Assembly: GCF_003841485.1 (NCBI RefSeq) | Contig: NZ_REFY01000007.1 | Coordinates: forward strand, 1 to 64,000 | Length of the DNA stretch: 64,000 nucleotides | Reading direction: 5' to 3' | Source of the DNA: Natrarchaeobius halalkaliphilus | GTDB lineage: Archaea > Halobacteriota > Halobacteria > Halobacteriales > Natrialbaceae | Shown: one piece after another, positions 30,492 to 53,225 of the stretch | Layout: every line of letters begins with the position of its first letter | Position numbering within the stretch: the first letter of the stretch is position 1 | Notes under the pieces: generated by a model | The model's database searches: none | The model's input: the letters and a program-made list of their open reading frames with translations, nothing else | Told to the model about the DNA's origin: nothing | Translations under genes and position numbers: made by a program

Positions 30492-31772
30492 ATGAGAAAC
30501 CATACTCGCCGGAAGGTGCTTACAACGACTGGTGCAGCGACCGCGTTCAGTCTCGCGGGGTGTATCGGTGACAGTGACGGAAGCAACGGGACGACGATCG
30601 AGACGCGATACATGGACGCGCCCGGTATCGAGGACTACTTCGAAGAACACACGGCGGCGTTCGAAGAGGAGACCGGAATCCACGTCGAGTTCGAAACCGT
30701 CGGGTGGGGTGAAGCTCAGGATACGCTCATGAGCGATATCACGAGTAGAACCGGCCCGGACGTTCAAGAAATCGCTTCGACCTGGATCCCGGAACAGTAC
30801 GATGCGAACGGGTGGATGGACCTCGAGTCCGACGAGGTCGTCGATCACATCCCGGACACCGGAATGTTCGAAGACGGTGCGATGGACGTCGCGACGTTTC
30901 AGGATACGCTCGTCGGTATCCCGTGGTTCTGGGGTCCGCGCGCGTGGCAACAGGTAGACGAGGAGGTCGAAGCTGGTGACGTCGCCGGACACCCCGAAGA
31001 CTGGGACGGTCTCGTCGATCAAGCACAGGCATACGACGGCGACAATCACCTGTTCGCACTCATGGGATCCGATTACGAGCCCATGCGGAACTTCGCGATG
31101 TTCCTCTGGCAGAGCGGCGGACAGTTGCTCACCGACGACAACTCCGAGCCGGCCTTCCACAACGAAGCGGGAGTCCAGGCGCTCCAGTTTTATGCAGACC
31201 TCTACGCCGAGTACGACGTGCTCGACTCCGAAACGGTCGAGTGGGCCGCTGCAGACATCAACGGTGCGTTTGCGGGCGGACAGATGGCCAGCACCATCGA
31301 CGCCCTCGGAACCGTCGGCGCGTACGAGGAAGAGGACGGCCAGTCGCTAGACGACCTCTCGATCTCCGCTCCGCCCGTCGGCCCCGACGGCGACGGCGGC
31401 ACCTTCTTCGGCATGGAGCTGCTCGGTATCCACCCGTGGACCGACGAGCCCGAAGCAGCCGCACAGTGGATCGAATACCTGCTCCGCGCCGAACCGAACG
31501 CCGAAATCTCGAGTACGGTCGGATTCCTGCCGACCAATCCCGACGGGTTCGACACCGAGTACTTCGAACACGACGTCTACCAGACGTTCAACGATGACGT
31601 CTTCCCGGTCGCACAGACGTACCCACAGGTGCTCGGCTGGGGTGAGATCGAGGGCGAACTCAACAGATCCGTTGCCGAGGTCATCCAGAATGCCGTTACC
31701 GGTGACCTCGAGGAAGGGGATGTCCAGAACGCGCTCGACGACGCCGCGGAAGTCGCACACCAGACGTTATAG
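30492..31772 (+). CDS. Sugar ABC transporter substrate-binding lipoprotein
   Basis: A 426-residue family 1 solute-binding protein. The N-terminus has a twin-arginine motif (HTRRKVL) and a lipobox (SLAGC), so it should be exported by Tat and anchored by a lipidated Cys. The mature part shows the family's pattern: EEHTAAFEEETGIHVEF, DVQEIASTWIPEQY, FALMGSDYEPMRNF, AQWIEYLLRAEP. It binds a sugar outside the membrane and delivers it to the two permeases downstream. Substrate is unknown; amino sugars or chito-oligosaccharides are plausible given the neighbours. Confidence 0.9.
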   Translation: MRNHTRRKVLTTTGAATAFSLAGCIGDSDGSNGTTIETRYMDAPGIEDYFEEHTAAFEEETGIHVEFETVGWGEAQDTLMSDITSRTGPDVQEIASTWIPEQYDANGWMDLESDEVVDHIPDTGMFEDGAMDVATFQDTLVGIPWFWGPRAWQQVDEEVEAGDVAGHPEDWDGLVDQAQAYDGDNHLFALMGSDYEPMRNFAMFLWQSGGQLLTDDNSEPAFHNEAGVQALQFYADLYAEYDVLDSETVEWAAADINGAFAGGQMASTIDALGTVGAYEEEDGQSLDDLSISAPPVGPDGDGGTFFGMELLGIHPWTDEPEAAAQWIEYLLRAEPNAEISSTVGFLPTNPDGFDTEYFEHDVYQTFNDDVFPVAQTYPQVLGWGEIEGELNRSVAEVIQNAVTGDLEEGDVQNALDDAAEVAHQTL

Positions 31773-31950
31773 TCGATTCCGGTCGAATCAGCTATCCCCC
31801 GCGAGTTGCGATGCGTTCGCGGTGGATCAGCTCGTCGATCCCCTGCCGTATACGTCGTCTCTCGATCCACAGCCGTTGTGACGTTGACCTGTATCGCTAC
31901 CGCGTTCGAGAGAACAAAAACATTAACCCAACTCAACCCTCATAACCGTT

Positions 31951-32937
31951 ATGGTACGTACGACGAGACAGTTTCGAAGCCGACTAGCCGATCTTCACCT
32001 CGGGAGCTATCTCCCGCTGTACAATCGGCTGACCGAACAGCAGCGTTTTGCATACAAACTCCTCGCCCCGGGGCTCGCGATGATGTTTCTTATTCATTTT
32101 ATTCCGATCATCTGGGGGACGCTCATCAGTTTTCTCGGCGTCGACTCGAGTTACATCTACCGGTGGCATGCAGCCCCGTTCGTCGCGCTCGAGAACTATC
32201 AGTACGTATTGGATCCACGTACCGTGGTCGGCGGCCGGTTCTGGTTCTCGGTCCGGCAGACGGTCATCTTCGCGGTCGGAACCCTGGTGGTGACGTACGT
32301 TCTCGGGCTAACGGCAGCCCTCGTTCTCAATCAGAAGTTCAAGGGGCGATTCGTGGCGCGAACGCTGTTGTTACTGCCGTGGGTCGCGCCGGTCGTCGTC
32401 ACGCTGCTCATCTGGCGAATGATGTTCCAGCAACAGAGCGGCATCATCAACAACATTCTCATGTCGATCGGGGTCATCAACGAGCCGATCTACTGGCTCA
32501 TCGGGGACAACGCCATCTGGACGCTCGTCCTCACCCACTCGTGGACGCAGTTCCCGCTCGTGATGATCATGCTGTATGCCGGGTTGCAGTCGATTCCCGA
32601 ACAGCTCTACGAGGCCGCAGCGATCGATGGAGCTGGCCGGTGGGAGAAGTTCCGCCACATCACTTTTCCGCAGCTAAAACCGGTTTCCGCCGTGGTCGTG
32701 TTGCTGGTGATGCTGTGGACTATGATCAACTTTACCGCGCCGTACGTCCTGCTCGGCGCACAGCCGCCACGAGCAGGCCAGGTTTCGATCCTGTACATCT
32801 ATGACTTTGCGTTCTCGAACTTCCAGTTCGGCCGCGGTGCGGCGATGAGCGTCGTCCTCTTTGCGATCGCGATGACGATGGCGCTTGCGTACTACAAGTA
32901 TCTGTTTGACGAGGACTTTACGGAGGGAGACCAATGA
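31951..32937 (+). CDS. Sugar ABC transporter permease (MalF/UgpA type)
   Basis: A 328-residue inner permease with six predicted membrane segments and the EAA loop that docks the ATPase (YEAAAIDGAGRWEKFRHITF). It begins after a ~180-bp gap behind the binding-protein gene with its own AT-rich upstream stretch. Its last codons overlap the next permease (ATG within the final four bases, 32934-32937), so the two are translationally coupled. Confidence 0.9.
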   Translation: MVRTTRQFRSRLADLHLGSYLPLYNRLTEQQRFAYKLLAPGLAMMFLIHFIPIIWGTLISFLGVDSSYIYRWHAAPFVALENYQYVLDPRTVVGGRFWFSVRQTVIFAVGTLVVTYVLGLTAALVLNQKFKGRFVARTLLLLPWVAPVVVTLLIWRMMFQQQSGIINNILMSIGVINEPIYWLIGDNAIWTLVLTHSWTQFPLVMIMLYAGLQSIPEQLYEAAAIDGAGRWEKFRHITFPQLKPVSAVVVLLVMLWTMINFTAPYVLLGAQPPRAGQVSILYIYDFAFSNFQFGRGAAMSVVLFAIAMTMALAYYKYLFDEDFTEGDQ

Positions 32938-33860
32938 TTCCCACGGGACTTCAGCTGTCGTCGTCGGCCACGGAGCGCCTGTTCGATCTCTTGACGAAGG
33001 GAGTTCTCGGCACTCTATTACTGTTCGCGTTGTTTCCGATCTACTGGATGGTCATCTCGAGTTTCCGGACCCGGACCGAGATCACGGCCGCAGATCCGCA
33101 GCTCTTACCGTTCGAGCTCGCAGAGATTCCGGCCATCGTTCAGGATCCCGTTCTCCTGGCCGAGATCCTCCACTACGAGAACTACGTCACGATGTGGGGG
33201 CGGTTCCCGGTGTTGGACTACTTTATCAACAGTCTCATCATCGCGAGTACGACGACCGTCTTCGCTCTCATCGTCGGCTGTCTGGGCGGATACGCCTTCT
33301 CGAAGTACCGGTTCCCCGGGAAAGGTGCCGTTGGAGGCGCGTTGCTCGGCACGCAGATGATACCGGGAATCCTCATCTTGATCCCGATGTTCCTGCTGTT
33401 CGTCTGGATCCAGGATACCTTCGCAATTCCGCTGGTAGACACCTATCACGGAATCATCTTCGTCTACACGACGTTCACCATTCCGGTGGCGATCTGGATG
33501 CTCAGGGGATTCTTCGATACGATCCCTGACTCCGTCGAGGAGGCGGCGCGGGTCGACGGCTGTTCGCGAATACAGGCACTCGTCCGTGTCGTGCTCCCGA
33601 TGGCTGCTCCAGGCATTGCTGCCACGGGAATGTTCGTCTTCCTCGTTGCGTTCAACGAGGTGTTGTTCGCGTCGATTCTCGCCAGCGGCGACGTGACTCC
33701 GTTCGCGATCGGCATTCAGAGCTTCGAAACGCAGACGACAGCCTACTGGGGCGAAATGATGGCCGCATCGACGGTCGCAACGGCTCCCGTTTTGCTCCTG
33801 TTTGTCCTCTTCCAGAAGCCGATCGTCGAGGGACTCACTGAAGGGAGCGTCAAACAGTAA
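32934..33860 (+). CDS. Sugar ABC transporter permease (MalG/UgpE type)
   Basis: A 308-residue permease with six membrane segments. The EAA loop EEAARVDGCSRIQALVRVVLP is present near residue 200, and YWMVISSFRT at the start is typical of MalG-like proteins. It overlaps the upstream permease by 4 bp and partners it in the membrane heterodimer. Confidence 0.9.
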   Translation: MIPTGLQLSSSATERLFDLLTKGVLGTLLLFALFPIYWMVISSFRTRTEITAADPQLLPFELAEIPAIVQDPVLLAEILHYENYVTMWGRFPVLDYFINSLIIASTTTVFALIVGCLGGYAFSKYRFPGKGAVGGALLGTQMIPGILILIPMFLLFVWIQDTFAIPLVDTYHGIIFVYTTFTIPVAIWMLRGFFDTIPDSVEEAARVDGCSRIQALVRVVLPMAAPGIAATGMFVFLVAFNEVLFASILASGDVTPFAIGIQSFETQTTAYWGEMMAASTVATAPVLLLFVLFQKPIVEGLTEGSVKQ

Positions 33861-33941
33861 GTCGATCTTCACTGTTTTCGTTTGATCTGTTCATCCGTCG
33901 TTAGGTAGTTATAAATATCCTCGCGAACCACCGTAGTACAA

Positions 33942-35108
33942 ATGGCACGTGTCAACATAGATGAGCTGACCAAAGAGTACAACTCACCAGGCGGGTCGAT
34001 CGTCGCCGTCGACGATCTGAATCTCTCGATGGAAGACGGCGAGTTTGTCGTCTTCGTCGGCCCGTCCGGCTGTGGGAAATCGACGACCCTTCGGTGTGTC
34101 GCCGGCCTCGAGACGGTGACCGACGGCGCAATCCGCTTCGGACCGGAAGACGTGACTGACCAGAAACCGAAAGAGCGGGATATCGCGATGGTGTTCCAGA
34201 ACTACGCGCTGTATCCACATATGAGCGCTCGAGAGAACATGGCCTTCGGATTGAAGATGTCCACGGATCTCTCCGCGGACGAAATCAGCGAGCGCGTCGA
34301 GGAGACTGCCGACATGATGGGCATCGAATCGTTGCTCGAGGACAAGCCGAAAGCGCTTTCGGGTGGTCAACAACAGCGCGTCGCGCTCGGTCGTGCGATC
34401 GTTCGTGATCCCGAAGTGTTCCTGATGGACGAGCCCCTGTCGAATCTCGATGCCAAGCTACGTGCCCAGATGCGGACGGAGCTTCAACAGCTGCAAAAGG
34501 AACTGGACGTGACGACGGTGTACGTGACCCACGACCAGACCGAGGCGATGACGATGGGCGATCGGATCGTCGTCCTCAACGACGGTCAGCTACAGCAGGT
34601 CGGAACGCCACTGGAGTGTTATCACCGACCGGCCAACCAGTTCGTCGCCGGCTTCCTCGGCTCACCGCCGATGAACTTCCTCGATGTCGAAGCCGATCCC
34701 GAGGACGGGAGTCTCCGTCATCAGAACTTTACGCTTCCGCTATCGGATTCTGCTCCCGCCGATCTCGACGGAGACAGGTTCGTTCTCGGAATCAGACCGG
34801 AGCACATCACTCTCACGGAGACGCCACAGACCCACGCCGAGCCTGATCGACTGATCGAAACGGACGTTACCGTCACCGAACCGATGGGCGACGTGACGAA
34901 CGTCTATCTCGAGGTCGGCGGAACGTCCGTGACGGTAACGACCGACGGCCACGTCGGAGTCGCTGCCGGCGACCGGATACACATGCACGTTCCGGGTACG
35001 AAGACTCATCTCTTCGATGCCGAATCAGGGGCGGCAGTCAAACACAGCGACGAACCGATCGACTCGAAACCGGTCACGGAAACGAGCGGTCGCGCAGAGA
35101 CCGCATAA
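33942..35108 (+). CDS. Sugar ABC transporter ATPase (MalK/UgpC type)
   Basis: A 388-residue ATPase. The nucleotide domain (1-240) has Walker A GPSGCGKST, the Q-loop in VFQNYALYPHM, the signature ALSGGQQQRVALGRA, Walker B VFLMDEPLSNLD and the H-loop TVYVTHDQTEAM. The C-terminal ~140 residues form the TOBE regulatory domain of carbohydrate importers (PMNFLDV ... GIRPEHI). It closes the four-gene importer operon; a short gap of ~80 bp precedes it. Confidence 0.93.
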   Translation: MARVNIDELTKEYNSPGGSIVAVDDLNLSMEDGEFVVFVGPSGCGKSTTLRCVAGLETVTDGAIRFGPEDVTDQKPKERDIAMVFQNYALYPHMSARENMAFGLKMSTDLSADEISERVEETADMMGIESLLEDKPKALSGGQQQRVALGRAIVRDPEVFLMDEPLSNLDAKLRAQMRTELQQLQKELDVTTVYVTHDQTEAMTMGDRIVVLNDGQLQQVGTPLECYHRPANQFVAGFLGSPPMNFLDVEADPEDGSLRHQNFTLPLSDSAPADLDGDRFVLGIRPEHITLTETPQTHAEPDRLIETDVTVTEPMGDVTNVYLEVGGTSVTVTTDGHVGVAAGDRIHMHVPGTKTHLFDAESGAAVKHSDEPIDSKPVTETSGRAETA

Positions 35109-35594
35109 TCAAAGCGATATCGGTGAATAGTAGTTCGTACTCGGTACCGCTTCGATCTGAAAACCCCTCGAGTCACTGCAACCTGGATCAGCGTGTCTCG
35201 CGCTTCGACTCGGGCCCGCGTCTCGACGCATCCGGCGTTGCGCTGTCGCAGATCAACTGCTACGCTCCCGACTCGACGATGACGGTCGGTTTGGCGTCGA
35301 GTTGATCTTTTCGCCGTCTCTTTGTGACGTTCGACTGCTGGACTCCTGGTCGCACGCTTACGGTTTTGTGTAGGGGTCCGACGGCTCGCTCTCGGATTGG
35401 CTCGATCATGTTCGTATATAAACCATATCTCAGCTTCACTTTTATTGTAGAATAGTACACAATCAAAAAGCCTTCAATATAAATAACGTCTATATTTCCG
35501 ATATTATTTTATAGGAGAAAGTATAATATTATGATGGCCACGATTGTTTGTGGCTATTGGATGCGAACGAGCGAACCACCGACAAACGATATCC
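35109..35594. promoter_or_regulatory. AT-rich promoter region of the chitinase array
   Basis: No gene. From ~35400 the sequence becomes AT-rich with several TATA-like runs (TATAAATAAC, TATTTTATAGG, GTATAATATTATG) ahead of the first chitinase ATG at 35595. Similar AT-rich leaders occur only before the genes at 41924, 43795 and 46936, marking likely transcription starts. Confidence 0.5.
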
Positions 35595-37592
35595 ATGAAA
35601 CGAACACGTCGAAACGTACTGAGTAACGCAACGAAACTATCCGCCCTACTGGCTGGAATCGGTGCCAGTGGTGCAGTTTCAGCAGAGAGCTATCCCGAAT
35701 GGGATCCAGACGCCGTGTATACGGGGGGTGACCGGGTCGTCTACGAGGGCTCCGTCTGGGAGGCCCAGTGGTGGACCCAAGGGGACGAACCCGATACCGA
35801 ATCGGGTCCCTGGGAGGAACTCGAAGAGGGTGGCGACGAAAACGACAACGAGAACGACAACGACGCTGATAACGGGGAATATCCCCCGTGGGATGCAGAC
35901 ACCGTCTACACCGGTGGCGACCGCGTCGTCTACGAAGGATACGTCTGGGAGGCTACTTACTGGACCCAGGGTGACAAACCCGGTGAATCCGAATGGGGCC
36001 CCTGGGAAGAGATCGAAGAGTACGACGACGGAGACGACGAGGACGACGAGGACGACGAGGAGTTGACCGCGAGCTTTTCGATCAGCACGCAGTTCCCCGA
36101 CCCCGGCGAGGAGGTCGAGTTCGACGCCGCCGACTCGGAGGGCGAAATCGAGAGCTACGACTGGGAGTTCGGTGATGGGACCGAAGCGAGCGGTGAGGTC
36201 GTTTCGAACGCGTTCGACGAAGGGCAGTACGACGTCACGCTGACCGTCGAAAACGCCGACGGAGAGACCGATACGGACTCCGTCAGGATCACCGCCGGCC
36301 GACCGTCTTCGGACGAAAAACGCGTCGTCGCGTACTACCGACAGTGGGCACAGTACGACCGGGACTACCTCCCTCGAGACATTCCGTACGACCAGATCAC
36401 ACACGTTCAGTACGCGTTCGCACGGCCCGAAGAGGACGGCACCGTCACACTCGTCGGTGACAGCCACGGACAGGGCGCCTTCTGGGATCAGGGTGACGAC
36501 TGGCGAGGCGTCGACGGTGGCACCTTTGCGGAACACGCCGCCGAACACGACGACACCAAGTTCGTCCTTTCGATCGGCGGCTGGGGAGACTCCGAGTACT
36601 TCTCGAACGCAGCCCTGGATCAGGAGAACCGCGAGCGGTTCGCTCAAAGCTGCGTGGAGTGGGTCGATCGAGGAAACCTCGACGGCATCGATCTCGACTG
36701 GGAGTTCCCCGGCGGCGGTGGCTGTACCGACGAGGATCCGGTCTGTGACATGGATAACATCGTCCGCGAGGGCGATCAGGAGCGCTTTACGCTGCTCTGT
36801 CAGGAAGTCCGTGATCATCTCGACGATGCCGCCGAGAACGATCCCGATCGGGACGAACCGTACGAACTCACCGCCGCGGTGAGTGCGAACCCGGACGTCG
36901 CGGAAGGCGTCGAAGACGGGATGAACGGACTCGAGCACGACAAACTCTCCGACATCCTCGATTTCCTCCTCGTGATGACGTTCGACTACCGGGGCATCTG
37001 GAGCGAGACGACCGGCCACCACGCGCCGCTGATGGAAAGCTCCGACGACACCTTCGAGGATGCCGAGATCTGGAACGCAGAGTACGCACTCCAGTACTGG
37101 GAAGACCAGGGCTGGGACCCCGACCAGCTCAACATGGCTGTCCCGTTCTACGGCCGAAGCTGGACGGACGTCCAGCCGCCAGAGGGTGACTTCGGCACTG
37201 GCGAGGACGACGGTCTCTTCCAGGAGTACGAAGGCGACGGAGCAGATGCGAGCGGTGACGGCTCCTATCCGAGCTGGGATCCGGCGATGGGAAGCAGCTA
37301 CGCCGGCGTCTGGGAGTGGTTCGACCTCGGCGGAGACGGGCGCGGCAACAGTAACAACGTCAACCTCGAGAGCTCCGAGTGGGAGACGTACTTCGACGAA
37401 GAGGCCGTCATGGCTTGGAGCTGGAACGCCGAGGAGCGTACGATGATCTCCCACGAAACTGAAGAGTCGATGGAGGCCAAGATGCAGTGGCTCAGAGACG
37501 CCCCGTACGGCGGAACGATGCTGTGGGCGATCGGTGGAGACACCTACGAGGGAGATCTCATCGGAACGCTCTGGAATACGCTCAACGAGTGA
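35595..37592 (+). CDS. Secreted GH18 chitinase, two CBM5/12 plus PKD
   Basis: A 665-residue Tat-exported chitinase. Order: twin-arginine signal (MKRTRRNVL, to ~30); chitin-binding module 1 (~33-76, YPEWDPDAVYTGGDRVVYEG ... WEAQWWTQGDEP); an Asp/Asn/Glu linker; module 2 (~96-140); a second acidic linker; PKD domain (~158-235, YDWEFGDG); GH18 barrel from ~243. The barrel has SIGGW (326-330) and the catalytic DGIDLDWE (363-370, acid Glu370). It should hydrolyse chitin outside the cell by substrate-assisted catalysis. The family-like Tat start is at 35595, and the upstream frame extension is discarded. It opens the array; the next two genes follow within 190 bp and may share its transcript. Confidence 0.95.
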   Translation: MKRTRRNVLSNATKLSALLAGIGASGAVSAESYPEWDPDAVYTGGDRVVYEGSVWEAQWWTQGDEPDTESGPWEELEEGGDENDNENDNDADNGEYPPWDADTVYTGGDRVVYEGYVWEATYWTQGDKPGESEWGPWEEIEEYDDGDDEDDEDDEELTASFSISTQFPDPGEEVEFDAADSEGEIESYDWEFGDGTEASGEVVSNAFDEGQYDVTLTVENADGETDTDSVRITAGRPSSDEKRVVAYYRQWAQYDRDYLPRDIPYDQITHVQYAFARPEEDGTVTLVGDSHGQGAFWDQGDDWRGVDGGTFAEHAAEHDDTKFVLSIGGWGDSEYFSNAALDQENRERFAQSCVEWVDRGNLDGIDLDWEFPGGGGCTDEDPVCDMDNIVREGDQERFTLLCQEVRDHLDDAAENDPDRDEPYELTAAVSANPDVAEGVEDGMNGLEHDKLSDILDFLLVMTFDYRGIWSETTGHHAPLMESSDDTFEDAEIWNAEYALQYWEDQGWDPDQLNMAVPFYGRSWTDVQPPEGDFGTGEDDGLFQEYEGDGADASGDGSYPSWDPAMGSSYAGVWEWFDLGGDGRGNSNNVNLESSEWETYFDEEAVMAWSWNAEERTMISHETEESMEAKMQWLRDAPYGGTMLWAIGGDTYEGDLIGTLWNTLNE

Positions 37593-37688: not shown

Positions 37689-39611
37689 ATGAAACGATCA
37701 CGGCGTGACCTACTGAACGACGCATCGAAGGTACCGATCCTGTTCGCCGGACTCGGCGCGAGTTCGGTCGCAACAGCACAGGACTACCCCGAGTGGGATC
37801 CGGACGAGGTCTACAACTCGGGAGACAGAGTCGTCTACGAGGGCTCCGTCTGGGAGGCCCAGTGGTGGACGCGCGGAGACGAGCCCGCCACCGGCCCCGG
37901 CCCCTGGGAGGAAGTTGAAGAGAGTGGCGACGAGAACGACAACAGCGGCAACGATGAAGAGTATCCAGCGTGGGATGCGGACACCGTCTACACCGGCGAT
38001 GACCGGGTCACCTACGAGGGGTACGTTTGGGAGGCCAACTACTGGACCCAGGGCGACGAACCCGGCGATACCGAGTGGGGACCCTGGGAGGAAGTCGAGC
38101 CTATCGACGACGAGCCGGATCCGGACCCGCCGGAACTCGAAGCGTACATCACGACGAGTGCCACCCGAATCGAAACCGGTGACGAAATCGAGGTCGACGG
38201 CTCCGATTCGACGGGCGAAATCGAGAGCTACGAGTGGAAACTCGGTGATGACACCGAAGCGACCGGCGACGTCGTTACCCACACCTACGAAGAGACCGGC
38301 GAGTACACGGTCGAACTCACCGTTATCGACGAGGACGGTGAAACCGATACTGCAGCCCTCGAAATCACCGTCGCCGACGAAATCGAGGGTCCAGGCGACG
38401 ACTTCAAAGTCGTCGGCTACTACCCCGGCTGGAAAGCAAACGACGAACAGGACTACTATCCGAGCGACATCCCCTTCGATAAGGTAACCGACGTCCTGTA
38501 CGCGTTCATCGCACTCGACGAGGACGGCAACGTCTTCCCACCCGAGGACGACGAAACGGAGTTCGACATTCCGCGCCAGACGCACGAAGAGAACCTACAA
38601 GAGTTCGCGAATCTGGCAGACGACGTCGACTGTCGGCTTCACCTCTCTGTTGGTGGCTGGACGCTCTCGGACAATTTCCACATCATCGCTGAGGACCCGG
38701 ACGCCCGCGAGACGTTCGCGGATAACTGCGTCGAGTTGATGCGCGAGTACAACTTCGACGGCGTCGACATCGACTGGGAACACCCGGGCCCCGAGCAAGG
38801 CCAATGTCAGTGTGGGAACGCGGACGACTACGAAAACCACGTTCTGTTGCTCGAGGACCTCCGCGAGGCTCTCGATGAGGCGGCCGACGAGGACGGCCAG
38901 TACTACTACCTGTCGGTCGCCAACGGCGGCTCCGACTGGAACGCGGGTGGCCTCCGACACGGCCAGATCGGTGATGTCTGTGACTCGGTCTACGTCATGG
39001 CGTATGACTTCACCGGCGAGTGGCACGACACGGCGGGGCTGAACGCACCGATCTACGGTGACGATCACCCCCTCGACACGAGCGAATACGGTGACGATCA
39101 CCACGATCAATACTACGTCGAGTACGCCGTCGACGAGCTGTGGGCGGGCGATCACGGCGAGGAGGGCTTCTGGCCCGGTCAGTGGGAGTACCCACCGGCG
39201 GAACCCGCAGCGTACGACGAACTCGTCCTCGGCATGCCGTTCTACGGCCGTGGGTTCAACAACGCGACCGAACCCTACGACGGCATCGGCTTCGGACCGG
39301 ATGCACTTCCCGAAGGGACCTGGCACCACCTCCTTGCAGACGGCGAGGATCCGACCGGCGCGTTCGACTTCGGTGATCTGGAGGAGAACTACGAGGACGC
39401 AGACGGTTGGGAGAAGCAGCGCCACGAGCCCGGTGCGGTGCCGTATCTGGTCAACGAGGACGAAGAGACCTTCATCAGCTACGACGACGAGCAGTCGATC
39501 GCTGAAAAGGTCGAGTTCGCGAAAGAACGCGGTATGCAGGGCGTGATGTTCTGGGAACTCGCCCAGGACTGGGACGAATCGCTGCTGGATACGATCTTAC
39601 AGACGACCTAG
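37689..39611 (+). CDS. Secreted GH18 chitinase, two CBM5/12 plus PKD
   Basis: A 640-residue paralogue with the same layout: Tat signal (MKRSRRDLL, to ~30), CBM5/12 copies at ~32-75 and ~91-135, PKD at ~150-230 (YEWKLGDD), and GH18 from ~239. It contains VGGW (321-324) and the catalytic DGVDIDWE (357-364, Glu364). The barrel differs clearly from the first chitinase (HPGP rather than FPGG after the Glu, and a Cys pair CQCG at ~370), so the two probably attack chitin differently. It starts 96 bp after the first gene with no AT-rich leader, suggesting co-transcription. Confidence 0.95.
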   Translation: MKRSRRDLLNDASKVPILFAGLGASSVATAQDYPEWDPDEVYNSGDRVVYEGSVWEAQWWTRGDEPATGPGPWEEVEESGDENDNSGNDEEYPAWDADTVYTGDDRVTYEGYVWEANYWTQGDEPGDTEWGPWEEVEPIDDEPDPDPPELEAYITTSATRIETGDEIEVDGSDSTGEIESYEWKLGDDTEATGDVVTHTYEETGEYTVELTVIDEDGETDTAALEITVADEIEGPGDDFKVVGYYPGWKANDEQDYYPSDIPFDKVTDVLYAFIALDEDGNVFPPEDDETEFDIPRQTHEENLQEFANLADDVDCRLHLSVGGWTLSDNFHIIAEDPDARETFADNCVELMREYNFDGVDIDWEHPGPEQGQCQCGNADDYENHVLLLEDLREALDEAADEDGQYYYLSVANGGSDWNAGGLRHGQIGDVCDSVYVMAYDFTGEWHDTAGLNAPIYGDDHPLDTSEYGDDHHDQYYVEYAVDELWAGDHGEEGFWPGQWEYPPAEPAAYDELVLGMPFYGRGFNNATEPYDGIGFGPDALPEGTWHHLLADGEDPTGAFDFGDLEENYEDADGWEKQRHEPGAVPYLVNEDEETFISYDDEQSIAEKVEFAKERGMQGVMFWELAQDWDESLLDTILQTT

Positions 39612-39795: not shown

Positions 39796-41625
39796 ATGAA
39801 ACGAACTCGACGAAACGTCCTCGGTACAGCATCGTCAATGACCGCACTCCTGTTCGGTGCCAGCGCGAGCACCGCTGCACGGGACTACCCCGAGTGGGAT
39901 CCGGACGAGGTCTACAATTCGGGAGACCGGGTCGTCTACGAGGGCTCCGTCTGGGAGGCCCAGTGGTGGACCCTAGGTGACGAACCCAGCGCGGGTCCTG
40001 GTCCCTGGGAACGACTCGAGGAAGACGCCAACGACGACGAAAACGACGATGAGAACGACGGTAACGGCGGCAACGACAGCGAATACCCCTCCTGGAACGC
40101 AGACACCGTCTACACCGGCGGTGATCGCGTCGTCTACGACGGCTACCTCTGGGAAGCGAACTGGTGGACGCAGGGCGACGAACCCGGCGAATCCGAGTGG
40201 GGCCCCTGGGAAGAGATCGAAGAGTACGACGACGGAGACGAGGATGATGACGATAACGGCGACGACGACGTATTGGCGGGCTTCTCCGTCAGCGACTCGA
40301 ACCCTGACCCGGGCGAGGAGGTCGAGTTCGACGCCGCCGACTCGGGGGGCGAAATCGAGAGCTACGACTGGGAACTCGGTGACGACACCGAGGCAACCGG
40401 CGAGGTCGTCATCCACACCTACGACGAGGACGGCGACTACGAGGTCGAACTGACCGTCACCGATGTCGACGGGGCGACCGACACCGATTCGACGACCGTC
40501 ACCGTCGCGGACGAGCCAGATAGCGACCTGACCGCCGACACCGCTCTCGAGGAGTTCTACGCGGAGTTCGACAGGGACTTCTATCCGGAAGAAACCGAAG
40601 GTGGCGTTCCCGGACTGCTCGAGAACGAGTTACACGAGGATGCAAGCGAGCACGGGGCCGATCTCGACGCGATCGAGAACGACGCTGGAGACGGATCGAT
40701 GGAGCTCGGCGCGCTCGGCGACCGCGGACTCGAGCTGGTCAAGCATTTCGACGACGTCGGCGTGGCACGAGCAAACACCGCGCGGCTCGTGGCGTGGCTG
40801 GCGGGGCTGGCCGAGGAGACCGAACCGATTCCGTTCAACGATGGAAGCGGACGGGGCGGTGGTCTTACGGCCGACGCGGGACCAGTAGCGGCGACGAACG
40901 ATCCGTCGGTGTTCGTCCAGAACGCGTGGCCGTTGGGCGAGGACTTCGACGACGTCTACCATCAGTCCCAACGCGAAGACTGGAGCAGTGGAGTCAGCGA
41001 CGACCAGTACACCAACGTCGAGAATCCGATCATCGACGCCGCAGTCAATAAGGTCCATCCGCTCACGGGCGAGTCCCTTGGCAACGGCTTCAGTGCGAAC
41101 GCGCCGCTCGAGGCGACCGCGGAACTCCACGGGGACGGTTGGCAGTTCGATACGGCGCTGATATTCGAGAACACCACCGACGTACCGCTGTTGATCGACG
41201 GCGCGGTCATCTGGTGGGTCGGGCCGTCGAAAGGCGGAACCGGTCTGGATCAGTTCTCCTACGACAACGCACAACGCAAGAACTTCTCGGTGGGTCACCC
41301 ACAGCGCGACGTCATCGAGGTGGCGCTGCCGGACGAGTCCAAACCGGGTTCATTCGAGGGAACCGACGCGCCGCTGTCGGCGTACGGCGTCCGGATGGCA
41401 CAGCACAACAACCCGTACATGTACCGGACGCTCTATCCCAACCAGAAGTTCTCGATGACCTACGGAAACGTCACCGGCCCCGATCAGTACGACTGGCCGC
41501 GTGAGGACCTGCTCGAGGTGATGCTCGACACCTGTCACGTCGAGTTCCGCGATGACATGGACGACATCGAGCAAAACACGGAACTGGTCGAAACGCTCGA
41601 TATGAAAAACCGCTTCGGGAACTAA
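39796..41625 (+). CDS. Secreted chitin-binding protein with unrecognised C-terminal domain
   Basis: A 609-residue protein whose first ~240 residues match the chitinases: Tat signal (MKRTRRNVL), CBM5/12 at ~31-72 and ~97-140, acidic linkers, and PKD at ~160-238 (YDWELGDD). The remaining ~365 residues contain no GH18 motif and resemble nothing I know. They include a helical first part (ALEEFYAEFDRDFYPEE ... VARANTARLVAWLAGLAEE) and a beta-rich second part (ATAELHGDGWQFDTALIFEN, LIDGAVIWWVGPSKGG, RMAQHNNPYMYRTLYPNQKF). It sits between chitinases, so a role in chitin breakdown is likely, but I assign none. It starts 184 bp after its neighbour. Confidence 0.9.
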   Translation: MKRTRRNVLGTASSMTALLFGASASTAARDYPEWDPDEVYNSGDRVVYEGSVWEAQWWTLGDEPSAGPGPWERLEEDANDDENDDENDGNGGNDSEYPSWNADTVYTGGDRVVYDGYLWEANWWTQGDEPGESEWGPWEEIEEYDDGDEDDDDNGDDDVLAGFSVSDSNPDPGEEVEFDAADSGGEIESYDWELGDDTEATGEVVIHTYDEDGDYEVELTVTDVDGATDTDSTTVTVADEPDSDLTADTALEEFYAEFDRDFYPEETEGGVPGLLENELHEDASEHGADLDAIENDAGDGSMELGALGDRGLELVKHFDDVGVARANTARLVAWLAGLAEETEPIPFNDGSGRGGGLTADAGPVAATNDPSVFVQNAWPLGEDFDDVYHQSQREDWSSGVSDDQYTNVENPIIDAAVNKVHPLTGESLGNGFSANAPLEATAELHGDGWQFDTALIFENTTDVPLLIDGAVIWWVGPSKGGTGLDQFSYDNAQRKNFSVGHPQRDVIEVALPDESKPGSFEGTDAPLSAYGVRMAQHNNPYMYRTLYPNQKFSMTYGNVTGPDQYDWPREDLLEVMLDTCHVEFRDDMDDIEQNTELVETLDMKNRFGN

Positions 41626-41923: not shown

Positions 41924-43474
41924 ATGAAACGAACACGACGAGACGTACTGCGCAACGCATCGAAACTATCCGCTGTCCTGGCGAGCGTCGGCGTCGGCGC
42001 TACCGCCAGCGTCACGGCTCGAGAGTATCCCGAATGGGATTCAGAGACAGTGTATACGGGGGGTGATCGGGTCGTCTACGACGGCTCGGTCTGGGAAGCG
42101 AACTGGTGGACTCAGGGGGACGAACCCGACACCGGGCCGGGCCCCTGGGAAGAACTCGAAGAGGACGATAACGACAACGAGAACGACAACGACGCTGATA
42201 ACGGGGAGTATCCGCCGTGGGATGCAGACACCGTCTACACCGGCGACGATCGAGTCGAACACGATGGCTACGTCTGGGAGGCCCAGTGGTGGACTCAGGG
42301 CGACGAACCCGGCGAATCCGAGTGGGGTCCATGGGAAGAGATCGACGTGTACGACCCCGGACCGAGTGCTTCGTTCACCGTCAGCGATCCGAGTCCGGAA
42401 CCCGGAACGGAGATCACGCTCGATGCATCCGGTTCCGAGGGGGAAATCGACTCGTACGCGTGGAACCTCGGTGATGGTACCGAAACGACCGGTGAAGTCG
42501 TTACCCACGGCTACGACGAGGAGGGCGACTATCGGATCGAACTCACCGTCGAAGACGACGACGGCGAGACCGACAGCACCGGAACGACCGTCTACGTGGG
42601 AGATGTCGAGCCACCGACGCCGGACGGCGTCTACACGCCGTACCAGGGGACCTGGTACGACATCGTCGACGGCACCCTCGAGAGAGACGCCGATCGAATT
42701 ATCATGTCGTTCATCGGTGACGCCACCAGAGACGGCGAGATCACGCCCGGTTGGTTGGCGAACTGTAACGTCGGGTCCTGCGAACAGGAGCCACTCGACG
42801 ACTACGCCGATGAGATCCAGACGCTCCAGGACGACGGTATCGAGGTCGGCCTCTCGATCGGCGGTTGGGAGAGTCCCGTCGTCGCTCGCGATGCGGACGA
42901 TCCGGAGGAGTTGAAGGACGCCTACGCTGATCTCCTCGATGCGTTCGACGCCACGCACCTCGACATCGACGACGAGAACGCCACCGATTCGGATCGACCG
43001 GACGATCTCCACGAGATCCGAAACGAGGCCCTCGCGTTGCTCAAAGACGAACGGCCCGAGATCACCGTTGGCTTTACAGTGGCAGCTACTCCGGATGGAA
43101 TCGTCGATTGGGGTCACTCTCCTGGGAAGGTCTTCATCGAGGACGCCGTCGAGAAGGGCCTCGAACTCGACTACGTCCAGCCCATGACGATGCACTACGA
43201 CAGCGAGCCCGAGAACTTCGAGACGATCACCTCGGCGCTCGAGGGAACGGTGGAGTTCCTCGAAGAGGTGTATCCCGAACGGTCCGAAGACGAGCTGTGG
43301 GGGATGGTCGGCGTGACGCCGTATCTCGGTGAAATCACAACCGATATCGCGAGCGATCTCGTCGATTTCGCCAACGAAAGGGGCATGTACAGCATCGCGC
43401 CGTGGGTGCTTGGCGAAGACGACGGCGGCGAGTTCTCGGCCGTCTTCTCCGAGTTCGAGAGTAGCGACAGCTGA
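41924..43474 (+). CDS. Secreted compact GH18-like chitinase, two CBM5/12 plus PKD
   Basis: A 516-residue Tat-exported protein: signal (MKRTRRDVL), CBM5/12 at ~35-77 and ~96-140, PKD at ~146-226, and a ~285-residue catalytic domain. That domain begins DGVYTPYQGTWYDIV, has SIGGW (311-315) and ends with VLGEDDGGEFSAVFSEFE. The motif THLDIDDE (344-351) keeps the D-x-D-x-E of GH18 with Glu351 as likely acid, but lacks the usual DG at its start. It belongs to the shorter GH18 subgroup with chitinases such as bacterial ChiD-like enzymes. Its catalytic domain is almost a twin of the gene at 48766, with long stretches identical at DNA level. Confidence 0.9.
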   Translation: MKRTRRDVLRNASKLSAVLASVGVGATASVTAREYPEWDSETVYTGGDRVVYDGSVWEANWWTQGDEPDTGPGPWEELEEDDNDNENDNDADNGEYPPWDADTVYTGDDRVEHDGYVWEAQWWTQGDEPGESEWGPWEEIDVYDPGPSASFTVSDPSPEPGTEITLDASGSEGEIDSYAWNLGDGTETTGEVVTHGYDEEGDYRIELTVEDDDGETDSTGTTVYVGDVEPPTPDGVYTPYQGTWYDIVDGTLERDADRIIMSFIGDATRDGEITPGWLANCNVGSCEQEPLDDYADEIQTLQDDGIEVGLSIGGWESPVVARDADDPEELKDAYADLLDAFDATHLDIDDENATDSDRPDDLHEIRNEALALLKDERPEITVGFTVAATPDGIVDWGHSPGKVFIEDAVEKGLELDYVQPMTMHYDSEPENFETITSALEGTVEFLEEVYPERSEDELWGMVGVTPYLGEITTDIASDLVDFANERGMYSIAPWVLGEDDGGEFSAVFSEFESSDS

Positions 43475-43794: not shown

Positions 43795-45219
43795 ATGAAA
43801 CGAACACGTCGAAACGTACTGCGCGATGCATCGAAGCTGTCTGCACTACTGGCCGGTCTTGGCGCGGCTGGGGCCGCCAAAGCTGATTCCGACGAGTATC
43901 CCGAATGGGATTCAGAGACAGTGTATACGGGGGATGACCGGGTCGTCTACGACGGCTCGGTCTGGGAAGCCAGCTGGTGGACTCAGGGGGACGAACCCGG
44001 CGAAAGTGAGTGGGGTCCCTGGGAGGAAGTCGACGACAGCGGCGATCCGGACCCCGAACCACCCGACGGTCCGACGGCGACTGTTTCCACGGATCCGTTG
44101 TCGCCGGAACCCGGCGACGAGGTCGAGTTCGACGCGGCTGACTCGGACGGCGAGATCGAGGATTACGGGTGGGAGTTCGGAGATGGCGAGACGGCGACCG
44201 GCGAGAACGTCACTCACGCGTACGGAGAGGAGGGAGAGTACACGGTCGAACTCACCGTCATCGACGACGGTGGTCAGACTGACAGCGAGACGGTTACGGT
44301 TTCGGTCGAACCCGAAGATGAATCTCCGCCCGTCGATCCGGGGGAGATTCCGGATCAGGTGTTCGCGCCCTATCACCATCTGACGACTGATCCCGAGACG
44401 ACACCGGTCGAGTGGTCCGGCCCTGCCGGGACGGACTACTTCCATCTGGCGTTCATTCTCGGAACCGGCGACGGAACGCCGGCCTGGGACGGTGACGTCG
44501 ATCACGTCGTCGGTGAAAGCCAGTTCGACGACGAAATCCGCGAGCTTCAAGACCAGGGCGGACAGGCGATCATCTCCTTTGGAGGTGCAGTCGGCAACTA
44601 TCTCGCGTCGGATTACGACGACCCGACCGAACTTGCCGATACGCTCGAGTTCATCGTCGACGAGTACGACTGTCCGTATCTCGACATCGACGACGAAGCC
44701 CCAGATATGGACGTCGTCGACCTGCGAAACGAGGCGATCGCGATCTTACAGGACCGACGTCCAGATGTCCACGTCGGCTACACCGTTCGGACGCGCGTCG
44801 ACGGCGTCGCAGACACCGAAATCATCACGAACGCGATCGATAACGGCGTCGACGTCGGCTACGTCAATCTGATGACGATGAACTGGGGCTGGGTGCGAAC
44901 CAGTGCGGAAAACTGCATCGAGTGTGCCGAAGGCACGCACGACCAGCTCCAGGAGTGGCTACCGGAGAAATCCGACGAGGAGTTGTACACGATGATCGGT
45001 ATCACGCCGATGATCGGCGTCCAGAACTCCGGCGGTCCGTTCTACCCCGAGGACGCTGCCGAGGTCAGGTCCTACGCCGAGGACCACGATCTTGGACTCC
45101 TCTCGTTCTGGTCGATCGAACGTGACAACCCTGGTGACGGACTCGACGCCGAACACAGCGGTATCGAGCAGGACCCTTTCGATTTCTCGGAGAACGTCAG
45201 TCCGTTTACCGCCGAGTAA
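43795..45219 (+). CDS. Secreted compact GH18-like chitinase, one CBM5/12 plus PKD
   Basis: A 474-residue Tat-exported protein: signal (MKRTRRNVL, to ~30), one CBM5/12 (~34-79), PKD (~93-171, YGWEFGDG), and a ~290-residue catalytic domain. The domain starts DQVFAPYHHLTTDPE, has SFGGA (261-265) where others have SIGGW, and CPYLDIDDE (293-301) with Glu301 as the probable acid. It is related to the catalytic domains at 41924 and 48766 but more diverged. The CBM-encoding DNA is nearly identical to that of the gene at 41924 (43897-43978 against 42026-42107), a sign of recent module exchange. Confidence 0.88.
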   Translation: MKRTRRNVLRDASKLSALLAGLGAAGAAKADSDEYPEWDSETVYTGDDRVVYDGSVWEASWWTQGDEPGESEWGPWEEVDDSGDPDPEPPDGPTATVSTDPLSPEPGDEVEFDAADSDGEIEDYGWEFGDGETATGENVTHAYGEEGEYTVELTVIDDGGQTDSETVTVSVEPEDESPPVDPGEIPDQVFAPYHHLTTDPETTPVEWSGPAGTDYFHLAFILGTGDGTPAWDGDVDHVVGESQFDDEIRELQDQGGQAIISFGGAVGNYLASDYDDPTELADTLEFIVDEYDCPYLDIDDEAPDMDVVDLRNEAIAILQDRRPDVHVGYTVRTRVDGVADTEIITNAIDNGVDVGYVNLMTMNWGWVRTSAENCIECAEGTHDQLQEWLPEKSDEELYTMIGITPMIGVQNSGGPFYPEDAAEVRSYAEDHDLGLLSFWSIERDNPGDGLDAEHSGIEQDPFDFSENVSPFTAE

Positions 45220-46935: not shown

Positions 46936-48708
46936 ATGAAAGAAACCAGACGCAACGTTCTGTGGAAGGCATCGGCGCTGTCCGCGATCGGACTCGGTGC
47001 GACCGTCACCGGCGCGACAACAGACGACTGTAGCGACTACCCCGACTGGGACGCGGACGACACCTACACCGACGGTGACCGGGTTGTCTTCGAGGGGAAC
47101 CTCTACGAGGCGGAGTGGTGGGTTCAGGGGACTGAACCCGACGATGACGAGGGTGTTTGGACGGCGGTCGGCCCCTGCGAGGGCAACGGGGCAGGTCCGC
47201 AGGCATCGTTCGAAGTCAGTCCTGCGGTTCCGGAGCCCGGCGACGAGGTTGAGTTCGATGCGGATGATTCGGCGGGTGATATCGAGGACTACGAGTGGGA
47301 GTTCGGAGATGGCGGGACGGCAACCGGCGAGAACGTCACTCACGCGTTCGACGACGACGGAGAGTACGAAGTCGAACTCACTGTCACCGACGACGACGAT
47401 GAAACTGATAGTGCTACCGACGAACTTTCGGTCGTCGATCGGGACGCCGGTGCCGCGGACAAGCGCGTCGTCTCGTACTACATGCAGTGGGCCCAGTACG
47501 AACGCGATTACTATCCCGAAGACATCCCCTACGACGACATCACTCACCTCCAGTACGCGTTCATGCGTCCAGAGGAGGACGGCTCGATCGAGATCGTCGG
47601 TGACGACCACGAGGCGCGCCTGCTGTTTCCCGACGAAGCGGGCTACGGTCACGAGGACTCGTTCGAGGGAATCGTCGACGAGCACGAAGACGTCGTCTTC
47701 CTGATCTCCATCGGTGGGTGGGGTGATTCGGAGTACTTCTCCGACGCCGCACACACCCAAGAGAACCGCGAACGGTTCGCCTCCGACGCGGTCGAGATCC
47801 TCCGGGAGACCGGTTTCGACGGTATCGACGTCGACTGGGAGTATCCGGGCTTCGAGGGCGAGGAGGGCAACGTCGTCCGACCCGACGAAGACCACGAGAA
47901 TTACGCTCTCTTGCTCGAGGAGTGTCGCAAACAACTCGACGAAGCCGAGGACGAAGACGACAAACGCTACTGGCTCACCGCGGCCCACTCGGCTAACACC
48001 GAGCACAACGAGGACTTCGATCACGAGGCGCTCCGGGATCACCTCGATTTCGTTTCGCTCATGACGTTCGACTACCACGGCGGCTTCTCCGAGTACACGG
48101 CTCACCATTCGCCGTTGCATCGGAACGAAGACGATCCACACGACTACGCCGACGACTGGTACACCTCGTACGCGATGGAGTGGTGGGTCGATCAGGGATG
48201 GGATTCCGAGAATCTCAACATGGCCGTTCCGTTCTACGGCCGGAGTTTCGCCGGGATCGACCCGCCCGAGGACGACTTCGGAACGGGCGAGGACGACGGC
48301 CTCTTCCAGGAGTTCGAGGACACCGGCGACGGCTCGTTCCCCGATCCCGATCCGGACGGTGGCTCGAGCGTCAGCGGAATCTATGAGTACTGGGATCTCG
48401 CCGGCGAGATCCGCGGGGACGGCGAAAGTCAGGTCGACCTGAGCGAAGAGGGCTGGGAGACCGCGATCGACGAGGAGGCGGTGACCGCCTGGAGCTACAA
48501 CCCCGACGAGACCGTTCCCTCCTCGCCCGGCGAAGGCTGGGGCGAGAACGAGGGACTGATGATCTCCCACGAGACGACCGAGACCGTCGAGCAGAAGATG
48601 GAGTGGATCACGGACAACGACTACGGCGGCACGATGCTGTGGGCGCTGTCGCACGACACGCCCGACCACGAACTGCTGAGCGCGATCTCCGAGACGTTGC
48701 TGGACTGA
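46936..48708 (+). CDS. Secreted GH18 chitinase, one CBM5/12 plus PKD
   Basis: A 590-residue Tat-exported chitinase: signal (MKETRRNVL, to ~28), a diverged CBM5/12 (~35-80) bounded by cysteines (Cys32 and Cys81), PKD (~88-167, YEWEFGDG), and GH18 from ~176. The barrel has SIGGW (258-262) and the catalytic DGIDVDWE (295-302, Glu302), followed by EYPGFEG. It resembles the chitinase at 35595 (both begin KRVVxYYxQWAQYxRDY and contain GGWGDSEYFS), so these two are the closest pair among the classical GH18 genes. It has its own AT-rich leader and is followed at 57 bp by another chitinase. Confidence 0.95.
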   Translation: MKETRRNVLWKASALSAIGLGATVTGATTDDCSDYPDWDADDTYTDGDRVVFEGNLYEAEWWVQGTEPDDDEGVWTAVGPCEGNGAGPQASFEVSPAVPEPGDEVEFDADDSAGDIEDYEWEFGDGGTATGENVTHAFDDDGEYEVELTVTDDDDETDSATDELSVVDRDAGAADKRVVSYYMQWAQYERDYYPEDIPYDDITHLQYAFMRPEEDGSIEIVGDDHEARLLFPDEAGYGHEDSFEGIVDEHEDVVFLISIGGWGDSEYFSDAAHTQENRERFASDAVEILRETGFDGIDVDWEYPGFEGEEGNVVRPDEDHENYALLLEECRKQLDEAEDEDDKRYWLTAAHSANTEHNEDFDHEALRDHLDFVSLMTFDYHGGFSEYTAHHSPLHRNEDDPHDYADDWYTSYAMEWWVDQGWDSENLNMAVPFYGRSFAGIDPPEDDFGTGEDDGLFQEFEDTGDGSFPDPDPDGGSSVSGIYEYWDLAGEIRGDGESQVDLSEEGWETAIDEEAVTAWSYNPDETVPSSPGEGWGENEGLMISHETTETVEQKMEWITDNDYGGTMLWALSHDTPDHELLSAISETLLD

Positions 48709-48765: not shown

Positions 48766-50127
48766 ATGAAACAGACACGCCGAACGCTGCTTCGAAACGC
48801 ATCGAAACTATCAATCGTACTGGGAGGCCTCGGCGTCGCTGGCGCGACCGTCACCGCCGAAGAGTATCCCGAGTGGAATCCCGACGAGACGTACACCGAA
48901 GGCGACCGCGTCGTCCACGAGGGATCCGTCTGGGAAGCCCAGTGGTGGACTCAGGGCGACGAACCCGGGGAAAGCGACTGGGGCCCCTGGGAGGAAGTCG
49001 AAACGCACGATCCGGGGCCGAGCGCCTCGTTCTCCGTCAGCGACTCGAGTCCCGACCCCGGCGACGACGTCGAGTTCGACGCGAGCGAGTCGGCGGGCAA
49101 TCTCGAGAGTTACGGATGGGAGTTCGACGACGGCGAGACGGCGACCGGCGAGGCCGTCACCCACTCGTTCGACGACGACGGAGAGCACGAGGTCGAACTC
49201 ACCGTCGAAGACGTCGACGGCGAAAGCGATAGCACGGGGTCGACCGTCTACGTCGGCGACGTCGAGCCGCCGGACGCCGACGGCGTTTACTCGCCGTACC
49301 AGGGCACCTGGTACGACATCGTCGACGGTACCCTCGAGCGGGACACCGACCGAGTCATCATGTCGTTCATCGGCGACGGAACACGGGACGACGAAATTTC
49401 GCCAGCCTGGCTCGCGGACTGTCAGAACCACGAGTGTGGCGAGGAGTCACTCGACACCTACGCCGGCGAGATTCAGACGCTCCAGGACGAGGGAATCGAG
49501 GTCGGACTGACGATCGGCGGCTGGGAGAGTCCCGTCCTCGCTCGCGACGCGGACGATCCGGAGGAGCTGAAGGACGCGTATATCGATCTGCTCGACACGT
49601 TCGACGCCACCCACCTCGATATTGACGACGAAAACGCGGAGGATCCAGATCGACCGGACGGCCTCCACGAAATCCGCAACGAGGCGCTCGCGTTGCTCAA
49701 AGACGAACGGCCCGAGGTCACCGTCGGGTTCACCGTCTCGGCCAGTCCGGACGGGCTCGCCGACTCCGGACACTCTCCCGGGAAGGTGTTCATCGAGGAC
49801 GCCGTCGAGAAAGGCCTCGAGTTGGACTACGTGCAAGCGATGGCGATGCATTTCGAAGACGAACCCGAGAACTTCGAGACGATCACCTCGGCGCTCGAGA
49901 GCGCGGTCGACTTCCTCGAAGAGGTGTATCCCGAACGGTCCGAAGACGAGCTGTGGGGGATGGTCGGCGTGACGCCGTACGTCGGTGAGATTACGACGAA
50001 CGACGCCAGTGACCTCGTCGACTTCGCCGCCGAGAAAGGAATGTACAGCATCGCGCCGTGGGTGCTTGGCGAAGACGACGGCGGCGAGTTCTCGGCCGTC
50101 TTCTCCGAGTTCGAAAGCGGCGACTAG
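48766..50127 (+). CDS. Secreted compact GH18-like chitinase, one CBM5/12 plus PKD
   Basis: A 453-residue Tat-exported protein: signal (MKQTRRTLL, to ~31), one CBM5/12 (~34-78), PKD (~86-166, YGWEFDDG), and the compact GH18-like domain from ~172 with TIGGW (249-253) and THLDIDDE (282-289, Glu289). The catalytic domain is nearly the same as that at 41924 and includes identical DNA runs of 68 and 74 bp. It starts 57 bp after the preceding chitinase and has no AT-rich leader, so the two are likely co-transcribed. It ends the array, facing the GH9 operon. Confidence 0.92.
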   Translation: MKQTRRTLLRNASKLSIVLGGLGVAGATVTAEEYPEWNPDETYTEGDRVVHEGSVWEAQWWTQGDEPGESDWGPWEEVETHDPGPSASFSVSDSSPDPGDDVEFDASESAGNLESYGWEFDDGETATGEAVTHSFDDDGEHEVELTVEDVDGESDSTGSTVYVGDVEPPDADGVYSPYQGTWYDIVDGTLERDTDRVIMSFIGDGTRDDEISPAWLADCQNHECGEESLDTYAGEIQTLQDEGIEVGLTIGGWESPVLARDADDPEELKDAYIDLLDTFDATHLDIDDENAEDPDRPDGLHEIRNEALALLKDERPEVTVGFTVSASPDGLADSGHSPGKVFIEDAVEKGLELDYVQAMAMHFEDEPENFETITSALESAVDFLEEVYPERSEDELWGMVGVTPYVGEITTNDASDLVDFAAEKGMYSIAPWVLGEDDGGEFSAVFSEFESGD

Positions 50128-53135: not shown

Positions 53136-53225
53136 CGAGTACACGATTCGATGCAAGATATTTCACTCTTTGGATCAGTAACGCCGTCACTCGAAGAGCG
53201 TCAGAAATCGGACCCCGTCTCGACG

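Follow-up and report, generated by a model that had tools for sequence, protein, structure and literature searches.

The window, by which we mean the whole 64,000-nucleotide stretch of Natrarchaeobius halalkaliphilus DNA analysed here, contains a chitin locus in which one secreted protein has the delivery modules of its chitinase neighbours and a C-terminal part that resembles none of them. This raises the question of what that part does and on which substrate. The protein is encoded by an intact open reading frame on the forward strand, from an ATG at 39796 to a stop codon ending at 41625 (609 residues), and we refer to its last 365 residues as the orphan domain.

A chitinase-type secreted protein with an orphan domain

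The locus and the parts of the protein are laid out as follows.

30492-35108, + strand: sugar ABC transporter genes of the chitin locus (binding protein, two permeases, ATPase), from their translations
35589-37592, + strand: GH18 chitinase with delivery modules as in the 609-residue protein
37689-39611, + strand: GH18 chitinase with the same delivery modules
39796-41625, + strand: secreted 609-residue protein (Tat signal, two CBM5/12, PKD, orphan domain)
39796-39882, + strand: Tat-type signal peptide (MKRTRRNVLGTASSMTALLFGASASTAAR), read from the sequence as twin arginines and a hydrophobic stretch, common to the neighbours
39892-40008, + strand: first CBM5/12, residues 33-71 (PF02839)
40084-40215, + strand: second CBM5/12, about residues 97-140 (PF02839 in two stretches; extent from sequence reading)
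40294-40506, + strand: PKD domain, residues 167-237 (PF18911)
40528-41622, + strand: orphan domain, residues 245-609 (domain numbering 1-365), a 50-member family lacking a family or PDB match
41293-41310, + strand: GHPQRD motif, residues 500-505 (H501, R504, D505), invariant in 50/50 members
41311-41391, + strand: 27-residue segment from GHPQRD to RxxxHxxPYxxR (17 residues in all cellulase-locus members)
41392-41445, + strand: cluster R533, H537, P540, Y541, R544, Y547, P548, Q550, invariant in 50/50 members
41536-41544, + strand: H581 and E583 (HVE), invariant in 50/50 members
41924-43474, + strand: divergent short GH18-like protein, same delivery modules (PF00704 below cut-off; LDIDDE)
43795-45219, + strand: divergent short GH18-like protein, same delivery modules
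46936-48708, + strand: GH18 chitinase
48766-50127, + strand: divergent short GH18-like protein, same delivery modules
50308-52101, - strand: GH9 protein, Ig-like domain (CelD_N) at the N-terminus, signal peptide not evident

Sugar ABC transporter clusters of this kind in chitin loci are on record in PMC12343721. In the three short GH18-like proteins PF00704 is below cut-off or absent, and LDIDDE replaces the full DxxDxDxE motif. The GH9 protein may not be a cellulase but an exo-enzyme acting on chito-oligosaccharides. Beside it, at 52137-53144 on the reverse strand, lies a gene for a 336-residue protein that has no Pfam match and recurs next to the domain gene in four relatives' loci (L032, L033, L034, and L041).

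Pfam recognises two CBM_5_12 domains (8e-17) and one PKD domain (2e-17) in the 609-residue protein, all within residues 33-240. By blastp, residues 1-244 are 53-71% identical to the equivalent region of six adjoining secreted chitinase-type proteins, and residues 245-609 match no other protein of the window. An earlier note on this DNA had described the first 240 residues as interchangeable with those of the chitinase neighbours and the remainder as lacking a GH18 motif, and both descriptions hold. The locus GH18 chitinases share the Tat signal, CBM5/12, PKD, strand and locus with the protein, but a GH18 identity for residues 245-609 can be rejected, since they give no PF00704 match and a search for DxxDxDxE in them found none. 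The orphan domain is present in a single copy in the 3.51-Mb genome, which belongs to a congener of Natrarchaeobius chitinivorans AArcht7. It is not the product of a chance reading frame, because it recurs, stop-free and at 36-82% identity, in dozens of genomes.

A conserved haloarchaeal family outside known families

The note had also called the domain unrecognised, naming a confident match to a characterised family unrelated to polysaccharides as what would overturn its reading. Profile searches gave no such match: residues 245-609, queried singly or as a 34-row family, had no convincing counterpart in Pfam, NCBIfam, PHROGs or PDB sequences. When the 34 members were scanned individually, the top Pfam hit was to DUF1830 (E 0.002, in four members), the top PHROGs value was 0.11, and NCBIfam returned nothing. 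Pfam likewise yielded no expansin or DPBB domain and no GSDH, FAD or NAD domain. AlphaFold, run with just two close sequences, gave a mean pLDDT of 29 for the full domain and 32 for its putatively beta-rich half. The sole real match in viral, phage and plasmid collections was a Halocatena salina replicon, so the protein does not look viral. A literature search found no published expression or activity data on orphan-domain proteins.

With the further members supplied by two family-wide searches, the family comprises 50 distinct, tightly conserved members, confined to Halobacteria among the genomes sampled. It occurs in 40 of 391 Halobacteria genomes, one of the 40 being a marginal partial match, and a phylum-wide sample of 393 genomes recovered it solely in genomes already known to be positive, all of the same order. 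The profile searches covered Halobacteria and Halobacteriota; beyond that phylum, contigs were scanned with patterns from close relatives only.

All 50 members agree at 34 of the 365 domain positions, and 23 of these lie in the C-terminal half. This invariant set contains many His, Arg, Asp, Glu, Tyr, Asn and Gln residues and includes, in protein numbering, D385, H501, R504, D505, R533, H537, Y541, R544, Y547, H581, E583, R606 and N609; a fourth histidine, H445, is kept in 49 members. When the window species is compared with three relatives, the orphan domain is 77-82% identical, its own delivery part 40-54%, and the two best GH18 catalytic pairs 58-80%. Such conservation points to a functional core and would be unexpected in a spacer or a variable adhesin. 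The earlier note had left enzyme, adhesin and accessory factor on an equal footing; with its invariant polar core and enzyme-like conservation, the domain is more probably an enzyme than a structural adhesin.

One family in chitin and cellulose settings

Clustering of the neighbouring genes separates two settings. In the first, GH18 chitinases and often an S8 protease surround the domain gene, and the protein is delivered by CBM5/12 and PKD. In the second, the neighbours are GH5, GH9+CBM3 and GH10 enzymes, and delivery is by a 144-residue module that we call J (LLVNDYDGDPAWS...LYLDEVRFE). Most members carry a dedicated binding module, four consist of a signal and the orphan domain only, and four chitin-type members (L035, L036, L042, and L044) lack any neighbour with CBM5/12 up to five genes away. 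A genome usually has one domain gene, rarely two, next to many hydrolase genes; one genome (G321) has both chitin-type and cellulase-type members. GH18 is present in 22/22 sampled chitin-type genomes as against 50/391 overall (Fisher p = 2e-22, uncorrected for relatedness).

Delivery to chitin by chitinase-type modules, as the earlier note proposed, is thus strongly supported, by this GH18 association as well as by the modules themselves. Its suggestion of a chitin-active role stands as regards chitin delivery but not as a role in chitin alone, since about half of the family lies in cellulase loci, mostly with the other delivery module; the protein is better described as belonging to a haloarchaeal family that has a chitin branch and a cellulose branch.

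Module J is common to orphan-domain proteins and neighbouring haloarchaeal GH5 and GH9 cellulases, and the GH5, GH9+CBM3 and GH10 neighbours of J-type members often carry it; examples are L061:6117-8012 (last 144 residues), L051:5256-8237, L049, L058 and other cellulase loci. It has no Pfam match and no convincing PDB match, and is probably an undescribed cellulose-binding module. Small module-J proteins are encoded directly upstream of the domain gene at L058:7781-8497 and L054:11021-11785, with similar ones in L053 and L055-L057. Those of L058 and L054 end in an EF-hand/dockerin-like stretch (DxxGDGLxxDxxGDGxxxxDDVxxFFENxE) that is also found at the end of GH5 and GH10 enzymes encoded nearby, a possible sign of dockerin-like assembly. 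An S8 subtilisin-like protease adjoins or lies near the domain gene (L037, L038, L039, L040, L042, L048, and L064). The L037 protease has a terminal PKD and a CBM5/12-like module and is thus chitin-targeted; perhaps it strips protein from cuticle.

Maximum-likelihood analysis places the J-type and domain-only members together in a single group inside the chitin types, so one switch from chitin to cellulose suffices; a long branch separates the window's own clade. The spacing from GHPQRD to RxxxHxxPYxxR follows the same division, being 17 residues in every J-type member (21) and in the four domain-only ones, and 27 in all but two chitin types. This 10-residue difference beside the invariant core is a candidate specificity loop.

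Cupredoxin fusions in four members

Four of the 50 members, from two families and forming one small clade (L009/L036 and L007/L035), carry a cupredoxin between the CBM5/12 and PKD modules. PF00127 is over cut-off in L036 (26.0 against 21.2 bits) and just under it in L035 (21.1), and the ligand pattern H...C-x2-H-x3-M can be read in both sequences. Cupredoxins of this subtype are common in haloarchaea (57/145 genomes). Ten close relatives from outside the family were scanned: eight are joined to a GSDH-type sugar dehydrogenase, two lack any other enzyme domain, and the GSDH fusions gave no CBM5/12 match. These haloarchaeal cupredoxin-GSDH dehydrogenases have the cupredoxins closest to those of the four members, whereas their catalytic part is unrelated to the orphan domain. 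Cupredoxin-fused, GSDH-type (probably PQQ) sugar dehydrogenases (L113, L115-L119, and L121-L123) are widespread in Natrialbaceae and others.

In G041 and G059 the cupredoxin subtype was found solely in the orphan-domain protein, and in G135 also in a GSDH fusion; no chitinase in these genomes was therefore found to carry it. Elsewhere this electron-transfer module accompanies secreted oxidoreductases. Taken with the three invariant histidines, the fusion, which is confined to one clade, makes a metal-dependent oxidative enzyme the first, tentative choice. The cupredoxin could be a mere passenger, and three invariant histidines need not bind a metal.

A candidate module for attack on crystalline polysaccharides

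We consider it very likely that the orphan domain works directly on solid beta-1,4-polysaccharides, and probable that it does so as an enzyme. Our preferred, still tentative, reading is more specific: a substrate-targeted catalytic module for crystalline beta-1,4-polysaccharides that would act by metal-dependent oxidation, LPMO-like but distinct from AA10. The protein would then be a secreted, chitin-anchored degradation factor whose C-terminal 365 residues are the working module, for chitin here and for cellulose in its relatives. Its Tat signal would export the folded protein, and the CBM5/12 pair and PKD would dock it on chitin, as in the adjoining chitinases. The C-terminal module would attack or open the chain surface, allowing the GH18 enzymes to proceed. 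Metal-dependent oxidation is predicted to occur at a site formed by His501, His537 and His581 with Glu583/Asp505 and surrounding Arg and Tyr residues, and the cupredoxins, where present, may pass electrons to or from this putative oxidative site. Catalysis, metal binding, oxidation and action at the solid surface are all conjectural steps of this scheme.

The observations under it are the architecture, the family, its invariants, the substrate-matched context and the cupredoxin fusion in four genomes. We prefer oxidative attack because delivery matches substrate, CBM5/12 and PKD mostly accompanying GH18, and J accompanying GH5, GH9+CBM3 and GH10; because a single switch in the tree comes with a loop, lying between two invariant motifs, that differs by 10 residues; and because GH18 is found in all 22 chitin-type genomes against 50 of 391 (again uncorrected for relatedness). 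It is favoured further because 34 positions are invariant in 50 members and the domain is 77-82% conserved, because the cupredoxin fused in four members has relatives mostly on GSDH dehydrogenases, and because AA10 is rare (7/391 Halobacteria genomes) and absent from the window genome.

Several of these observations bear on other readings as well. The invariant D385, D505 and E583, kept in 50/50 members, would equally suit a hydrolase, and the domain may represent a new glycoside hydrolase family that uses these carboxylates as its catalytic pair to cut beta-1,4 bonds in chitin or cellulose. The modular layout matches that of the hydrolase neighbours, and the chitin and cellulose versions differ by one loop, as in hydrolase families of shifting specificity. 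However, sequence and profile searches gave no likeness to any hydrolase profile or solved structure, and the cupredoxin fusion has no role in hydrolysis; we regard this reading as unlikely. A soluble substrate is suggested by the usual partner of the fused cupredoxin, a GSDH-type sugar dehydrogenase: the domain would then oxidise oligosaccharides or sugars freed at the surface and, as a dehydrogenase, pass electrons to a cupredoxin, rather than act as a surface monooxygenase. This is improbable, as the domain gives no GSDH, FAD or NAD-domain match and its fixed link to modules for insoluble polymers suggests a solid substrate. A chitin deacetylase is disfavoured because half of the family lies in cellulase loci and cellulose has no acetyl groups, and a polysaccharide lyase because neither chitin nor cellulose contains uronic acids.

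The domain may instead be a non-catalytic accessory that binds or loosens crystalline polysaccharide in the manner of an expansin, or anchors cells to chitin or cellulose. One gene, rarely two, beside many hydrolases would fit such a role, as would its wealth of invariant aromatic and polar side chains. Non-catalytic cellulose-binding proteins such as tapirins are encoded beside cellulases and lack a hydrolase signature; their likeness to the orphan-domain protein is one of context only, sequence having been compared through Pfam alone. Tapirins offer a precedent as non-catalytic binding proteins in some cellulolytic bacteria, as mentioned in PMC10267330. Yet adhesins seldom show such a density of invariant polar residues or such enzyme-like conservation, most members already have a dedicated binding module, and Pfam gave no expansin match, which makes an accessory rather unlikely.

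Relation to known systems

For the preferred oxidative reading, the nearest known counterparts are the AA10 LPMOs (PF03067), including haloarchaeal AA10 proteins with CBM5/12. Like the orphan-domain proteins these are secreted, joined to CBM5/12 and found in chitinotrophic haloarchaea, and the AA10 class overall covers both chitin and cellulose, as the orphan-domain family does. The catalytic N-terminal histidine leads an AA10 protein, whereas the orphan domain is internal and C-terminal and has three internal invariant histidines. Membership of AA10 was rejected: there is no PF03067 match, the hhalign probability to haloarchaeal AA10 is 0.2%, and the mature N-terminus has no histidine, the chain past the Tat signal starting ARDYPEW before it runs into CBM5/12. 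AA9, AA11 and AA13-AA17 were rejected for lack of the N-terminal histidine and of any Pfam or PDB sequence match. That the orphan domain replaces AA10 is unsupported, as four genomes carry both.

Chitin-binding domain proteins lacking GH18 have been noted in Natrarchaeobius chitinase clusters (PMC12343721, in the portion available), and the window gene and its orthologues are very probably among them. That portion reports the absence of GH18 alone and describes no domain, family, invariants, cellulase-locus relatives or cupredoxin fusion.

A bolder proposal, which we put forward as doubtful, is that the family constitutes a new group of metal-dependent, probably copper, polysaccharide oxidisers, so far found only in Halobacteria, with neither sequence kinship to LPMOs nor an N-terminal histidine brace, divided into chitin and cellulose branches and including a version that contains its own cupredoxin as electron carrier. 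Known LPMOs are nearly absent from haloarchaea (AA10 in 7/391 genomes). As a conserved orphan module matched to the substrate of the surrounding locus, the domain is a strong candidate for a missing activity in their attack on crystalline chitin and cellulose and, if oxidative, would represent a new route of polysaccharide cleavage in saturated brine, outside the histidine-brace design.
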